64,000 nucleotides of DNA from Lentilactobacillus parabuchneri DSM 5707 = NBRC 107865. Its GTDB lineage: Bacteria > Bacillota > Bacilli > Lactobacillales > Lactobacillaceae. Shown in pieces: positions 723-23,677 of the stretch. Every line of letters starts with the position of its first letter. Position 1 is the first letter of the stretch. The stretch is taken from NCBI RefSeq assembly GCF_001435315.1, contig NZ_AZGK01000005.1, forward strand, positions 1 to 64,000. The letters are read 5' to 3'. Under the pieces are notes generated by a model, which had not been told where the DNA came from, searched no databases, and saw nothing but the letters and a program-made list of their open reading frames with translations. A program made the translations under genes and the position numbers.

Positions 723-2617
723 TGGTACAGGGATTTGATTTTACTCAAAGAAATACTAACTTGGATAAAATATTTCAGCAGCTTGATGGGAAAGGCTACT
801 TTGATGAAATCAAAAGCAAATACCGTGATCCGGCCACTGTTTATTGTTACCGGGTATTAACTGGTCAACAGTTAGCCTGCAAAACAATTAAACTAGCAGC
901 GTTTAGACATTTGAATGATTTAAAACGATCTACGGAGGATAAGTTTCCATATTACTACGATTTGGATAAATGCCGAAACATCTGTAACTTCGCACGCATG
1001 TGCCCTGATGTTTCTCAAAACAAGCCAATACCACTGATGATTTGGCAACAAGCAATCTTGTGCCTTTCTCAGGGATGGCGAACAAAGGAAGACAAGCAAA
1101 AGCGATTTGAGCGATGTATGGTTTCAGTGGCTCGGACTAATGGCAAGTCATATTTATTGAATATCTTGATACTTTACGCTTACTTGGTCGAGGCTAGTGA
1201 CCAGTTTAACGCTGATTTGTGTTACTTGGCACCAGTTGATAAGCAGTCTAAGAAGTCTTGGCGTTACATTAAACAGACTTTTAACAGCTTACAAGAAATG
1301 CCTGGATTTCGTAAATTAATCAAGGATCAGAATATTGCGATTAATGATGATGTTTTGAAATCTACGAAGACTCAAAACCAGATATTACGAATGACAGCTG
1401 GTAGTGCACAATTAGATGCCTTTCATTTCCTCTTTGCCACTGTGGATGAATACGGGGATGAAAACTTTAATTCAGATGTGATTTCTAAAGTCACCTCTGG
1501 ACAAGTTCAAACCAGTAACCGGCAAACATTTTTTATCAGTACGGCATACAGTAACCCTAAAGTCCCGATGTATAGTGATGTTAGACGACTCACTAAGGTG
1601 ATGGAAAAAGATTCTAACCGAACGGAAGATTCAACGTTGGCATTAATTTGGCAGCAGGATGACCAAGATGAAGTTGAGAACCCCGAAACATGGGTGAAAA
1701 GTAATCCATTACTAGATTTACCGGCTAAGCATGATACCCTACTGAAAGGGTTAATTAGTGAACGTGATTCTAAGCTGGAAGACGGCACATTAAATGATTT
1801 CATTAACCGTAACCTCAATATGTGGTTGCAGACTGCTAAAGATAAATATTTGAAATTAGAGGATATACAAAAGTCAGTTGTTTCTGATTTCGAAATTGAT
1901 AATCAAGATTGCTATGTGGGTTTTGATTTATCACATGCTTCAGATGATACGGCTTATAGTTTTGTTTTCCCACATTTGAATGGCGAACAAAAGAAATATT
2001 TCATCTTGCAGCATTCATTTGTTCCGTTAGCCCGAGCAGATAATTCCATTATTGTGAAAGAAAAACAAGATGGAATTAATTACTCAAACGCAGAAAAGTT
2101 AGGCTTTTGTGATATTTCGCAAAATTCTTATGGCTTAATTGATGAAGATTTTGTTGGCCGTTGGTTCCTGGATTTTGTTAACGATCATCATTTGAAAGTT
2201 AAGGCCTTCATTTATGATCCTTATCAGGCTAGTGCAATTACTGATTGGTTGGATAATAATATGCCAGAAGTGCCTTTTATTACTTTAAAGCAAGGGACGG
2301 TTAGTTTGAGCTCGCCCACAGTATTTTTGAGAAATCAGTTTATTGCGGGAAATATTGAGATGCTGGCTGATCCGATTTTGCAGACCTGCTTGGCTAACGC
2401 TGTAACAGTGGCTAATCCATATGGTATTAAAATTGATCGAACGGCGTTGACTTCGAAAATTGATTGTGCCGATGCCACTATCGATGCCATGTCTCAAGCC
2501 CTTTTTTATTTTGAAAATCCTAATCATGGCCTTAAAGAAGATAAAAAGAATCCATTTAATGGAATGAGTAATGAGGAGGTCAACGAATTCTTTACCAGTG
2601 ATCGTTTTAGTTTTTAA
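722..2617 (+). CDS. Phage terminase large subunit
   Basis: This 631-residue ATPase-nuclease pumps DNA into the prohead and cuts the concatemer. A Walker A-like segment ARTNGKS lies near residue 139 and an acidic Walker B segment FATVDEYGDE near 238. The RNase H-like nuclease domain starts around residue 399 (VGFDLSHASDDT) and continues with YDPYQAS near 498 and DCADATIDAM near 580, which supply the metal-binding aspartates. It starts with GTG overlapping the terS stop. The length is normal for HK97-type large terminases and I see no truncation. Confidence 0.93.
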   Translation: MVQGFDFTQRNTNLDKIFQQLDGKGYFDEIKSKYRDPATVYCYRVLTGQQLACKTIKLAAFRHLNDLKRSTEDKFPYYYDLDKCRNICNFARMCPDVSQNKPIPLMIWQQAILCLSQGWRTKEDKQKRFERCMVSVARTNGKSYLLNILILYAYLVEASDQFNADLCYLAPVDKQSKKSWRYIKQTFNSLQEMPGFRKLIKDQNIAINDDVLKSTKTQNQILRMTAGSAQLDAFHFLFATVDEYGDENFNSDVISKVTSGQVQTSNRQTFFISTAYSNPKVPMYSDVRRLTKVMEKDSNRTEDSTLALIWQQDDQDEVENPETWVKSNPLLDLPAKHDTLLKGLISERDSKLEDGTLNDFINRNLNMWLQTAKDKYLKLEDIQKSVVSDFEIDNQDCYVGFDLSHASDDTAYSFVFPHLNGEQKKYFILQHSFVPLARADNSIIVKEKQDGINYSNAEKLGFCDISQNSYGLIDEDFVGRWFLDFVNDHHLKVKAFIYDPYQASAITDWLDNNMPEVPFITLKQGTVSLSSPTVFLRNQFIAGNIEMLADPILQTCLANAVTVANPYGIKIDRTALTSKIDCADATIDAMSQALFYFENPNHGLKEDKKNPFNGMSNEEVNEFFTSDRFSF

Positions 2618-2677
2618 TATTTTCAACACTTGTTGGGTGATATATGTAGTGAATAAATTATTAGGGAGGCAGATTAG

Positions 2678-2842
2678 TTGAATCTGAAACAACTATGGAC
2701 AGGTTTAATCACTAACCTGTCTTTTATATTATTTTTATTTGGGTTAATTGCATTTGTGGTTGCCGCAAGCCTTATTAATTTTATTGTAGGTTGGGTAGTG
2801 GCCGGGATTGCTTTAATCGTTTTAGCCTATGTCATTTCGTGA
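2678..2842 (+). CDS. Small phage membrane protein, DUF1056-like
   Basis: This short gene encodes 54 residues and starts with TTG (2678) behind GGGAGG at 2664-2669. After a short polar N-terminus (MNLKQLWTG) nearly all the rest is hydrophobic, enough for two membrane segments (about 13-33 and 35-53). A small protein of this kind, DUF1056, commonly sits between large terminase and portal in lactobacillus phages; its function is unknown. The stop codon TGA at 2840-2842 is followed at once by the portal's ribosome binding site. The family call rests on size, position and hydrophobicity. Confidence 0.7.
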   Translation: MNLKQLWTGLITNLSFILFLFGLIAFVVAASLINFIVGWVVAGIALIVLAYVIS

Positions 2843-2855
2843 AAGGAGGCGTTGA

Positions 2856-4004
2856 ATGCTGAACCCCTTTAAAAATTTTATGTCAAAACAAACACAAACA
2901 ATTAGTACCACCGGGTATTCACCATTTATGTTAAATGGTACATTGTTATCCACTAACACTGTGGATGCAGACGGAGCACTGCAAAACAGTGATATTTATG
3001 CGGTGATTAATCGAATTGCAGGTGATGTGGCCAGCTGTGAATTTAAAACAGACCAATATAGCAACATGCTAAATCAGCCCAGCACATTATTGAGTGCTTA
3101 TAATTTTTGGCAAGCAGTTAGTGCTCAAATGATGTTAACTGGCAACGCCTTTGTTCTAATTCAGCGAAATGGCAATGGAAGTCCAGCAGGGTTGACCTTA
3201 ATCCCGTTTTACCAGGTCAGCATTACTTTAGATAATCAACAAAATGTTCTTTATTACACAGTTAATTACGGTGATGACCGAGGGCAGGTGACATATTTAG
3301 CTGCCGACGTTTTACATTTCCGATTGTTTGTTTCCGGACAAGTTGCCACTGAACTAGTGGGTAGCAGCCCGCTAAATAGTTTAGCTAAAGAAATTAACAT
3401 CCAGAATTATAGTAATCAATTGTCACTGAGCAGTTTAAAGAATGCAATTGCGCCTAGTTATACGATTACGGTTCCGGCGGCCAAATTGGAACCGGAAGCT
3501 AAAGAAAATATTAGAAAATCGTTTGAAAAACAAAATTCTGGTGCTAATGCTGGTCGACCAATTGTTTTGGATCAATCTGCTCAGCTTGATTCCTTACAGA
3601 TTAATCCGGATATAGCTAAATTATTAAATAATGCCACGTTTAGTCAGACCCAGATTGCCAAGGCTTTTTGTGTTCCAGATAGTTATTTAAATGGTCAAGG
3701 TGACGAACAATCATCAATTGAGATGATTCGTTCTTTGTATCAAAATAGTTTGAGCTTATACATTCGGCCAATTGAATCAGAATTGTCTTTAAAGTTGGGA
3801 ATCGACATTAAAATGGATATTAATTCGGCTATTGATGTTGATCATCAGCAATTAATTAGTAATATTACTAAATTAAGTACTGGTCAGTCACCAGCATTAA
3901 CGCCGCAACAAGCGCAAACAATTCTGAAACAAGCGGGAGTTTTTCCTGATTTGAAAGTTTCAGCAGTGGAAGGAGGTGATGATAATGACAACAGTACCAA
4001 TTAA
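2856..4004 (+). CDS. Phage portal protein, HK97 family
   Basis: This 382-residue protein forms the dodecameric ring at one head vertex through which DNA enters and leaves. Recognisable portal features are the N-terminal NSDIYAVINRIAGDVA segment (about residues 44-60), the QMMLTGNAFVLIQRNGNG strand region and the C-terminal helix with FSQTQIAKAFCVPDSYLNG. It starts at ATG behind AAAGGAGG. Its last 20 bases overlap the start of the protease gene, a common arrangement in HK97-type head modules. Confidence 0.92.
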   Translation: MLNPFKNFMSKQTQTISTTGYSPFMLNGTLLSTNTVDADGALQNSDIYAVINRIAGDVASCEFKTDQYSNMLNQPSTLLSAYNFWQAVSAQMMLTGNAFVLIQRNGNGSPAGLTLIPFYQVSITLDNQQNVLYYTVNYGDDRGQVTYLAADVLHFRLFVSGQVATELVGSSPLNSLAKEINIQNYSNQLSLSSLKNAIAPSYTITVPAAKLEPEAKENIRKSFEKQNSGANAGRPIVLDQSAQLDSLQINPDIAKLLNNATFSQTQIAKAFCVPDSYLNGQGDEQSSIEMIRSLYQNSLSLYIRPIESELSLKLGIDIKMDINSAIDVDHQQLISNITKLSTGQSPALTPQQAQTILKQAGVFPDLKVSAVEGGDDNDNSTN

Positions 4005-21771: not shown

Positions 21772-21900
21772 ATGTTAAACGAATTATTAAAATCATTCAA
21801 TTCATTACAAGTAACCGGTGCAGTTGTTTTTATGGTACTGCTTAAGCTTGTTAAGACACTGTGGAAAAATAAAATTGTCACTTGTTATTGGTTGGAATGA
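21772..21900 (+). CDS. Short holin-N-terminus-like ORF, probably a remnant
   Basis: Forty-two residues starting at ATG 21772 behind AAAGGAAG. The first half (NSLQVTGAVVFMVLLKLV) resembles the N-terminus of the real holin 600 bases downstream (NSLKATGLVAFLIAVIPA), including the single hydrophobic segment. It then ends in an unrelated tail after running into the next remnant. It could be a small membrane protein still in use, or debris from a duplication or recombination in the lysis region. Confidence 0.5.
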   Translation: MLNELLKSFNSLQVTGAVVFMVLLKLVKTLWKNKIVTCYWLE

Positions 21901-21979
21901 ATTAACCAAAGATCAGTTTACTGATATTACTGGTAAGAATTATGACACAGGGGTGGAAAATTCATCAACTGCTTCTTAA
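21848..21979 (+). pseudogene. XkdX-like C-terminal fragment
   Basis: In a frame different from the preceding ORF, the bases up to TAA 21977-21979 read VIGWNELTKDQFTDITGKNY, which matches the C-terminal half of the small XkdX family (gene normally found between baseplate and holin). No N-terminal half or convincing start is present; upstream in this frame the sequence is unrelated. The fragment is fused to the holin-like ORF by what looks like a deletion. Confidence 0.5.
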
Positions 21980-22066
21980 TTGACGGTCAGTTGAGTACAC
22001 TCACATGTAGACGTTTTTTGGAATGCAAGTTTAATTAAATTAAAGTCCGTCACTTTTTTGGAACAG

Positions 22067-22075
22067 TGGTATAAT
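22067..22075 (+). promoter_or_regulatory. Extended -10 promoter P1 before the lysis genes
   Basis: TGGTATAAT (22067-22075) is a perfect extended -10 element (TGN then TATAAT). The -35 region is poor (CCGTCA at 22047-22052). The predicted start is near 22082, exactly where a strong hairpin begins. Confidence 0.6.
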
Positions 22076-22081
22076 CATTTT

Positions 22082-22214
22082 CGTAGGCATTAACCCCCTT
22101 AGTGCCTACGCATTCGAATATTCATCTGAGCATTTATGAATGCCCCATGCTCATACATTCCCCTCAATGTATGTGATGTATACACGCCCGTCATAAGATG
22201 GGCGTGTTTGTTTT
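22082..22214 (+). ncRNA. Candidate structured RNA 1
   Basis: Downstream of P1 about 133 bases hold four consecutive hairpins and no ORF. They are CGTAGGCA/TGCCTACG (22082-22110), TGAGCAT/ATGCTCA (22127-22153), CATACATT/AATGTATG (22152-22173) and ACACGCCC/GGGCGTGT (22182-22207), the last followed by T-rich sequence as a terminator. The second and third share two bases and could compete. Promoter, folded body and terminator together look like a discrete small RNA or a leader with attenuation. Not recognised as a known family. Confidence 0.5.
22182..22214 (+). terminator. Intrinsic terminator of candidate RNA 1
   Basis: A perfect 8-bp stem (ACACGCCC with GGGCGTGT) and a 10-nt loop are followed by TTGTTTT. 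Confidence 0.75.
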
Positions 22215-22224
22215 CAATAATTAG

Positions 22225-22253
22225 TTGTTACGACTAAATAATCGTGATACAAT
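22225..22253 (+). promoter_or_regulatory. Promoter P2 before the lysis genes
   Basis: TTGTTA (22225-22230), a spacer of exactly 17 bases and TACAAT (22248-22253), with TGA directly before the -10 box as an extended -10. The predicted start is near 22260. Confidence 0.65.
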
Positions 22254-22259
22254 GCGTTT

Positions 22260-22347
22260 GTGGAATTCCATTCCTCCAAGAAGGAATTTCATGTTCTTCA
22301 ATATGATAAGAATTGAGGACGCCCTTTAAAGCGGGGCGTTTTCTTTT
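22260..22347 (+). ncRNA. Candidate structured RNA 2 or holin leader
   Basis: About 88 bases without an ORF follow P2. They contain ATTCCT/AGGAAT around 22269-22286, TTCTT/AAGAA around 22295-22312, and end in a G+C-rich terminator. The layout repeats that of RNA 1: extended -10 promoter, hairpins, terminator. The holin start lies 26 bases after the T tract, so this unit may act as an attenuated leader of the lysis genes. Confidence 0.45.
22319..22347 (+). terminator. Intrinsic terminator directly before the holin
   Basis: Stem ACGCCC (22319-22324) with GGGCGT (22334-22339), 9-nt loop, then TTTTCTTTT overlapping the last base pair. Confidence 0.7.
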
Positions 22348-22372
22348 ACACAAATTTTATGGAGGTAATTTT

Positions 22373-22840
22373 ATGTACACACAAATTGTCGATATTTTTA
22401 ATTCTCTTAAAGCAACCGGACTGGTTGCTTTTTTAATTGCTGTAATTCCAGCAACTTACAAATTGGTTAAACCGTTGATTGAAGCTAAAATTAAAACTGA
22501 AAAGAATACTCATATCAAGCAAGGGATGGAATTAGGCTTGAAATTAGCGAATGCTTTCGTTCCTGTGGTGGCAAGTATGCCTGCTTTAAGTAACTCAGAT
22601 CGCAAAAAGGTGGTCAATCAATTTGTTGATTCTGGCTTAAAAGAGTCCGGCTTTAATTTTAAAGCAGAAACAATTGAAGGATTAGCAGAACAAGCTTACC
22701 AGTATTATAAACACACTCTAAAGGGAGATAATCACAAAGCACCTGTTACTCCGGCGCCTACAAATGACGTTACACCCGACGTTCCAGTCGATGACGATCC
22801 GGAAGTATTTAACGAACCCCAATCATCTGAACAAAAGTAG
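22373..22840 (+). CDS. Holin, LLH family
   Basis: This 155-residue membrane protein is expected to time host lysis by opening the membrane for the lysin. One N-terminal membrane segment (TGLVAFLIAVIPATYKLV, about residues 14-31) is followed by a charged amphipathic region with ESGFNFKAETIEGLAEQA as in the LLH holin family. The C-terminus is a proline- and aspartate-rich tail. ATG 22373 follows TGGAGG; longer in-frame starts would reach into the terminator. The lysin gene follows after 12 bases. Confidence 0.85.
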   Translation: MYTQIVDIFNSLKATGLVAFLIAVIPATYKLVKPLIEAKIKTEKNTHIKQGMELGLKLANAFVPVVASMPALSNSDRKKVVNQFVDSGLKESGFNFKAETIEGLAEQAYQYYKHTLKGDNHKAPVTPAPTNDVTPDVPVDDDPEVFNEPQSSEQK

Positions 22841-22852
22841 GAAGTGACGAAA

Positions 22853-23677
22853 ATGACAAAAAAGGTTGCTGATTTATCAGTATTTCAAGGAAGCTCCGAG
22901 TCTTATATGAAGTCACTGAAAAGTCACGGAATTGATACCACGGTGGTTAAATTGACGGAAGGCACTGGATACATTAACCCTAAAGCTAGAGAACAAGTGG
23001 CTAACGGATTCAAAGTATTTGGTACTGTGAGTGTTTATCATTTCTTTCATGGTCATGGTTCATCAGAAGCTAAGTATTTCTTAGCTTGGGTAAAAAGCTT
23101 TGGGTTGGATAAATCCACAGTCTTGGCCCTAGATGTGGAAGCACAAGACCTTCCTTGGAAGACTACAGCTGAAGTAAATACCTTTTTAAAGGAGTTAAAA
23201 GCCAACGGATTTACCAACGTTATTACTTATGGATCCGGTTCATGGTTTGCTGAAAAGCGAATTGATCGAGCGAAACTTATTGATAAGCATATTTGGGTAG
23301 CGGCGTATGGTGTTAGTCAACCGGGAATTGATAATGCGAATGCCTGGCAATATACCGATAACTATGATGGATTAAAGGTTGACGCCAGTTTAGATTTTGA
23401 TGGTTCACTGTCCGGAAGTGGGGTAGTTATTAAACCTGCTAAACCGGAATATTATCAAACTCCAGGCCTATACGAAGCAACACAAAGCGTAATTCACCAA
23501 TTTAACGATGCTGAATTCAAGTCTAAACGGCATACTCGTCTGATTAAAGGAAGTCGATTCTATGCTACCCCAATAAAATATGGTGAAATTTATCGCCTTT
23601 CTACACCAACCGGTTACTATACAGCAAACAAAGATAAAGTTAAATTTATTTTTGCAGTAAAGGCTGGTGATAAGTAA
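22853..23677 (+). CDS. Phage lysin, GH25 lysozyme with C-terminal wall-binding repeat
   Basis: This 274-residue endolysin cuts the glycan chain of peptidoglycan. The GH25 muramidase domain covers about residues 4-190 with the signature acids in KVADLSVFQG, VVKLTEGTGY and LALDVEAQD. The last roughly 75 residues contain GSRFYATPIKYGEIYRL and TGYYTANKDKV, a wall-binding repeat typical of lactobacillus proteins. No signal peptide is present, consistent with release through the holin. ATG 22853 is 8 bases behind GGAAG; the GTG at 22844 overlaps that site. Confidence 0.93.
   Translation: MTKKVADLSVFQGSSESYMKSLKSHGIDTTVVKLTEGTGYINPKAREQVANGFKVFGTVSVYHFFHGHGSSEAKYFLAWVKSFGLDKSTVLALDVEAQDLPWKTTAEVNTFLKELKANGFTNVITYGSGSWFAEKRIDRAKLIDKHIWVAAYGVSQPGIDNANAWQYTDNYDGLKVDASLDFDGSLSGSGVVIKPAKPEYYQTPGLYEATQSVIHQFNDAEFKSKRHTRLIKGSRFYATPIKYGEIYRLSTPTGYYTANKDKVKFIFAVKAGDK

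Follow-up and report, generated by a model that had tools for sequence, protein, structure and literature searches.

Introduction

SprD, SprY and SprX, small RNAs (sRNAs) of Staphylococcus aureus, are single genes on mobile elements. SprY is prophage-borne. SprD uses a UCCC motif (PMC4132741). In Listeria, LhrC is present in five copies (LhrC1-5) of 111-114 nt with three CU-rich UCCC sites; the C-rich sites are single-stranded or in loops, an intrinsic terminator loop is present, and the RNA binds the lapB mRNA over its Shine-Dalgarno site (PMC4132741). The known LhrC targets named there are surface proteins, lapB and, from the title of a cited reference, OppA. AgvB and AsxR of Escherichia coli are sRNAs in the moron insertion site of prophages that measure 51-60 nt, are Hfq-linked, pair with host sRNAs and lie in convergent pairs (PMC4104026). 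A 2025 paper on a Listeria phage argued against sRNAs in that phage since intrinsic terminators and UCCC motifs were absent (PMC12282133).

Here we analysed a window of 64,000 nucleotides of Lentilactobacillus parabuchneri, in which two tandem units precede a prophage holin gene and form part of an apparently undescribed sRNA gene family found before the lysis genes of Lentilactobacillus prophages. The likeness to LhrC lies in C-rich exposed sites and an intrinsic terminator and, in part, in copy number (two units in the window and nine matches of our family model R3 in the array of locus L086); complementarity to Shine-Dalgarno sites was computed for the loops of our units. LhrC, however, is found in all Listeria species as five nearly identical copies, whereas the present units are prophage-borne and strongly diverged. 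With AgvB and AsxR they share the moron insertion site, yet unlike these they are ~90-160 nt long, tandem, equipped with C-rich loops and Gram-positive. They are Gram-positive like SprD, SprY and SprX, a sequence relation to which was checked via Rfam only. By the marks used in PMC12282133, unit 1 of the window has both a terminator and the motif (UUCCCC), and unit 2 has a terminator and UCCUCC instead.

Results

Two tandem units lie between the tail fibre gene and the holin

The late prophage genes of the window run from ~200 to 23,930; we could assign terminase, portal, head, tail and tail fibre functions among them, together with the holin and a GH25 endolysin. Between the tail fibre gene and the holin, the stretch 22067-22349 holds two tandem units. 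Each starts with an extended -10 promoter, continues in a structured, apparently non-coding body and closes with an intrinsic terminator, and the holin lies directly 3' of the pair (Table 1). A preliminary description had placed two tandem promoter-hairpin-terminator units before the holin, and this arrangement was confirmed; none of 60 dinucleotide shuffles gave such a unit. The region 21980-22372 (393 bases) contains two terminators, two extended -10s, three C-rich-loop hairpins and two promoter-terminator units, whereas the means over the 60 shuffles were 0.03, 0.18, 0.02 and 0, respectively.

Table 1. Coordinates of the two units and of their 3' neighbours in the window.
Feature	Position	Strand	Basis or remark
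Extended -10 promoter of unit 1 (TGGTATAAT)	22067-22075	+	read directly; invariant in 8 haplotypes
Unit 1, predicted small RNA of ~133 nt	22082-22214	+	z -7.0; R1 and R3 models
Unit 1 hairpin H1, C-run CCCCC (22094-22098) in loop	22082-22110	+	C-run unpaired probability 1.0
Unit 1 second C-run (CCCC), between hairpins	22143-22146	+	mean unpaired probability 0.56
Unit 1 hairpin CATACATT-CCCCTC-AATGTATG, third C-run in loop	22152-22173	+	unpaired probability 1.0
Unit 1 intrinsic terminator	22182-22214 (22182-22207 plus T tail)	+	terminator scan
Unit 2 promoter, TTGTTA-17-TACAAT, TG at extended position	22225-22253	+	read in sequence
Unit 2, predicted small RNA of ~90 nt	22259-22349	+	z -3.85; R2 model
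Unit 2 hairpin, CCTCC (22273-22277) in apical region	22260-22292	+	fold
Unit 2 intrinsic terminator	22315-22349 (22315-22343 plus T tail)	+	fold and second scan
Holin (phrog_2609)	22373-22840	+	E 2.8e-32; 3' neighbour of units
Endolysin (GH25)	22856-23677	+	3' neighbour

The fold of unit 1 reaches -51 kcal/mol and that of unit 2, with a moderate z, -30.8 kcal/mol; 0 of 200 shuffles were as good in either case. No clear -35 accompanies the unit 1 promoter (best 3/6). The unit 2 terminator, which ends 23 bases before the holin start codon, was absent from the first terminator scan. Four stems, two of them overlapping, are present in unit 1 as first described, although the suggested alternation of the overlapping stems is not conserved: the alternative pairing TGAGCAT/ATGCTCA has a mismatch in the L. 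sunkii haplotype, leaving a conserved switch unsupported.

We read an XkdX-like remnant with the tail fibre gene before the units. In 21772-21979 an XkdX-like C-terminal part is overlapped, in another frame, by a 42-aa ORF whose N-terminus resembles that of a holin, and the join differs in the relatives L016 and L002; judged by eye, this is an apparent scar of recombination.

Rfam at gathering scores gave no match at the units, which argues against a known RNA class, and reported only three tRNAs elsewhere in the window. Permissive scans (up to E 10) returned only matches far below gathering scores and none to LhrC, and membership of the units in the LhrC family was rejected on that ground. 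BLASTn against a phage collection found no match for the window region or for the L086 array. The units contain only short ORFs, and one haplotype has an 8-nt insertion; for small proteins encoded in the arrays described below no convincing match emerged, five array ORFs having no PHROG match below E 0.04. The open-access literature on Lactobacillus and Lentilactobacillus prophage RNAs or moron RNAs showed no such arrays among the matches listed, and on that literature the family looks as if it has not been described in print.

Both units are kept in close relatives

The window DNA matches 7 of 60 relatives, in one genus of 31, the weakest match being only 39 bases. Eight distinct haplotypes, the window's included, were taken from Lentilactobacillus genomes and viral contigs, each matching at least 400 bases, and six more distant holin loci that match from the holin side only were excluded from this alignment; all eight keep both units before the same holin. 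Variable columns number 21/100 in the XkdX-like end, 19/67 in the upstream spacer, 15/133 in unit 1, 4/89 in unit 2 (22259-22347) and 9/48 at the holin start, with 0/33 in the unit 1 terminator and 1/22 in the hairpin of the third C-run (22151-22172). No pair changed on both sides among these haplotypes, which are too alike for a test of base pairs; eight changed pair cells keep pairing by G-U exchange and seven break it.

A wider family with conserved structure and tandem arrays

Lentilactobacillus prophages carry RNA genes between the tail and lysis genes, as one or two units in most loci examined and as arrays in three. In locus L010 (L. parafarraginis) a unit before the holin has the same architecture in a different sequence, TGCTATAAT followed by C-rich-loop hairpins and a terminator (z -7.7). 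R1, the covariance model of window unit 1, gave weak matches in L057 (E 0.002) and L058 (E 0.004), a third one in L059 being little more than a terminator. Arrays precede the holin in L057/L095 (genome G019), L086 (G018, L. hilgardii) and L092 (G015), and the first two consist of 2-3 kb of largely non-coding DNA with successive promoter-hairpins-terminator units. The family units are tandem and ~90-160 nt long. Positions 640-3800 of L086 (3161 bases) contain 17 terminators against a shuffled mean of 0.18, and eight promoter-terminator units against 0.02. The L092 array holds an apparent insertion element, two adjacent frames at ~1990-3230 that we read from the sequence as an IS3-type transposase pair.

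The promoters of the family are mostly TRTGN-TATAAT. TGN stands directly before the best -10 in 24 of 30 units, 23 of which also match TATAAT in at least five of six positions, and is absent in the other six; the shuffled L086 array contains extended -10s of this quality at a rate of roughly one per kb (3.33 in 3161 bases). The -35 matches are 1-4 of 6 in the 24 TGN units and 5/6 in three of the other six. Such an appearance is that of independent sigma-A promoters with an extended -10. As six of the 30 units are without TGN and the -35 matches are weak, the promoters might need an activator.

Structural selection was assessed in an alignment of 15 units from eight loci, none from the window. 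Standard pairs fill 91.6% of 464 cells, 19 of 31 pairs show changes on both sides in one unit or more, and 44 cells carry double changes. Covariation scored 0.415, compared with 0.267 for shuffles, and not one of 500 shuffles attained the observed value; pairing falls to 30-49% when partners are slid by 1-3 columns. Covariation thus holds in the wider family, where conserved structure is evident, and is lacking within the window type. Stem cells with G-U outnumber those with A-C (53 vs 16; the p of 9e-6 is only indicative, the cells not being independent), and since G-U exceeds A-C in the stems, we take the + strand to be the RNA.

Two array haplotypes that are 97% alike, L086 and L302, differ at 1/238 hairpin-stem, 8/426 terminator, 2/136 terminator-tail, 1/81 promoter, 4/121 loop and 68/2167 other positions. 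Stems, terminators, tails and -10s together changed at 12/881 positions against 68/2167 elsewhere (p 0.006; stems alone p 0.012), and loops changed no more slowly than the remaining positions. That the units are merely DNA-level repeats or a recombination hot spot, with no function as RNA, would suit their inverted repeats and tandem duplication as well as L085, whose alignment to L086 is that of an array lacking an internal stretch; this reading is nonetheless very improbable in view of the strand-specific G-U excess, the terminators, the promoters close before the first hairpin and the covarying stems.

R3, the covariance model built from the 15-unit alignment and thus free of window sequence, covers the whole of window unit 1 (22077-22210) at a score of 30.2 bits, which gives E 8e-5 in 701 bases searched with no filters, the next best match having 14.3 bits. 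Over 174 kb the same match has E 0.02 and chance-like matches reach ~22 bits, and against the whole own genome (G000) R3 gave no match at E <= 0.1, so that unit 1 is not significant at genome scale. As score, strand, start point, slot and loops agree, and not by the score alone, we read window unit 1 as a diverged member of the family. Among the loci outside the window, L086 has nine + strand matches at E < 0.001, six of which are training sequences, and 9 of 11 viral-contig loci match at E <= 0.05, several of which duplicate loci that the analysis had covered before.

Distribution and genomic slot

R1, searched within the genus only, has strong matches in 6 of 24 Lentilactobacillus genomes and R3 matches 7 of the 24 at E <= 0.01; as the two sets share one genome, the family is present in 12 of 24. 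In a family-wide sample R3 matched 7 of 397 genomes, all in one of 40 genera, Lentilactobacillus. R2, the covariance model of window unit 2, matched 6 of the same number of family genomes, again all Lentilactobacillus; unit 2 is a separate type that is found only beside a window-type unit 1, and R2 revealed no relatives of it outside the window type in these 397 genomes. An order-level sample gave R3 matches in 0 of 395 genomes, which says little, as none of the known matching genomes was among the 20 of 395 rows listed. The large distribution runs used strict filters that lose weak matches, and a diverged form of the family may exist outside Lentilactobacillus.

Among the 1.5 kb regions upstream of holins, drawn from the holin places listed, at least two C-rich-loop hairpins were found in 10 of 21 Lentilactobacillus regions (L089 and L093 being near-duplicates and L083 only 115 bases) vs 0 of 82 in other genera; not counted in the 21 are the five remaining window-type places, each of which has units, and contig 107 of G018 (L013), which has none. 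With none among these 82, a holin-linked feature of all Lactobacillaceae is unsupported. As expected of morons, the units stand between late genes, in the tail-lysis slot, are variably present by these same counts, and have their own promoter and terminator as judged by sequence.

In L293, L294 and L295 a unit lies between a tail gene and a cargo gene common to all three, and the L295 prophage is of another type, having a baseplate J protein as well as a holin from a different family. The cargo gene, situated between the sRNA unit and the lysis genes, is PNPOx-like (PF01243 match in L295). The module thus seems to move between unlike phages while keeping the same slot, as morons do.

A terminator stands just before the holin in the window, L010 (3930-3975), L013 (3936-3978), L086 (3749-3780), L092 and L095, and in L013 it does so where no unit was found. 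As a terminator precedes the holin even where units differ or are absent, the lysis genes seem to need readthrough or antitermination. These terminators are what speaks for the main rival to an sRNA role, a cis-acting attenuator or insulator in which the promoters would be weak and transcription of the lysis genes would stop at the terminators until a late antiterminator or strong late transcription carries it through. One terminator would do for this purpose, yet the L086 array has 17, and own promoters and covarying hairpins with exposed C-runs are unneeded for attenuation; moreover, in L293-L295 the unit precedes a cargo gene, with another holin family in L295. We consider a cis-acting function rather unlikely as the main explanation, and the double attenuator delaying the holin that had been suggested is not favoured, as relatives stack many complete units and the unit can stand before a cargo gene. 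The terminator just before the holin may leave room for a secondary cis role, and such a role on lysis transcription could coexist with that of an sRNA.

Exposed C-rich loops and candidate targets

Folding of 32 units, some near-identical, gave a median z of -6.25, and all 32 have a C-rich run (CCC, CTCC or TCCTC) with a mean unpaired probability of at least 0.59. Unit 1 has three C-runs outside the terminator; exposed sites number one in unit 2, where the loop TCCTC has a mean unpaired probability of 0.61, and 1-6 in the other units. Across 28 units, 69 exposed CCCC were counted against 24.3 +/- 4.8 (highest 33) in 20 dinucleotide shuffles, and exposed GGGG were 0.

For each of the six loops tested, the energy of pairing with the start regions of 58 window genes has its peak where the Shine-Dalgarno site lies; the start codons of these genes had been chosen in part for a Shine-Dalgarno match. 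Letter order matters beyond composition in three of the loops (unit 2, the third C-run of unit 1 and family H2) and does not in the remaining three. The unit 2 loop and the Shine-Dalgarno site of the holin itself share six complementary bases (CCUCCA/UGGAGG, by eye). UGAGGGG, which is complementary to the CCCCUCA loop, has 25 listings ahead of an ATG in the own genome, one site appearing twice, vs 4 for the reversed control, and one of the sites is unit 1 itself on the other strand. Eight of the 11 ORFs of at least 60 codons behind such sites are membrane or exported proteins by a crude hydropathy rule vs 8 of 25 AAGGAGG ORFs, the latter from the first 30 of 91 sites (p 0.03), and an N-terminal hydrophobic stretch is present in 7/11 vs 4/25 (p 0.008); the signal is small and the sites were chosen after the loops had been seen. 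One UGAGGGG-site lipoprotein reads to us as OppA-like. Two relatives in which no units were detected show 7 of 14 UGAGGGG ORFs as membrane or exported (from 30 of 41 sites), and as the bias is also present there, we ascribe it to the genus as a whole. It points to host genes that the RNAs could hit and is no proof of targeting.

The start region TGAGGGGAGAAAATATGG is common to G005, G006, G008, G021 and G022, where from its N-terminus we read the protein as topoisomerase I, whereas the exact match in the own genome belongs to ribose-5-phosphate isomerase A; a conserved single host target is not claimed.

The C-rich loops could alternatively serve as sponges or decoys, titrating either an RNA-binding protein or some G-rich RNA of host or phage origin, with no direct repression of mRNAs. 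Phages of E. coli do encode anti-sRNAs in the moron slot (PMC4104026), many loops and copies suit titration, and two array units, at L095 4840-4880 in holin orientation and L086 3050-3090, carry G-rich stretches (GGGAGGAG and AAAGGAGGGC) complementary to the C-rich loops, possibly as built-in antagonists. Both of these lie outside the 32 folded units, in which the G-runs are base-paired (highest mean unpaired probability 0.20), and the search for G-rich partners covered start regions only; we hold titration to be unlikely.

Discussion

Based on our data we propose that the units are probably prophage-borne, independently transcribed and trans-acting sRNAs, "RNA morons" that would pair with Shine-Dalgarno sites in an LhrC-like manner. 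The gene anatomy, the structural selection, the strand, the exposed loops, the slot and the genus-limited spread in the searched samples are read directly off the sequences, and together with own promoters and terminators, a covarying family in relatives and no Rfam match they lend support to the initial view of small phage RNAs of no known class. Expression, action in trans, Shine-Dalgarno pairing and envelope targets are steps that we infer. On the best reading, by analogy, the units would work like LhrC and yet are not filed as LhrC.

According to this proposal, transcription of the units by the host sigma-A polymerase would not depend on the late operon and would probably occur in the lysogen already, and expression in the lysogen would possibly fit the moron-like layout. 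The RNAs would then act in trans. Their C-rich loops (CCCCC, CCCCUCA and CCUCC) would pair with UGAGGGG, GGAGG or similar G-rich Shine-Dalgarno sites and thereby block translation, as loops of this kind do in other Gram-positive sRNAs. As in Listeria LhrC, dose and avidity would gain from having several loops in each RNA and several genes in each array. Exported and membrane proteins would be the likeliest host targets, and a lysogen expressing the RNAs would have an altered cell surface. The sequences show that the units duplicate into tandem arrays and that their stems are kept through compensatory changes.

A bolder and rather doubtful extension of the sRNA reading is that an array forms an RNA-only prophage locus, a repertoire able to expand and contract, of up to ~nine diversified anti-Shine-Dalgarno RNAs, made in the lysogen, that might silence envelope genes, possibly phage receptors, or the start regions of incoming phages and thus bring about RNA-based superinfection exclusion.

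The cargo of prophages has mostly been sought as proteins. Through a family of covarying RNAs that have promoters of their own, here with arrays stacked in one food-fermentation genus, RNA cargo would become a class that can be measured. The arrays imply that transcription of the lysis genes in such phages must cross one or more terminators. The family would be a natural system in which to study target sharing among near-redundant sRNAs, and it would also address whether lysogens reshape the surface of their host by RNA.
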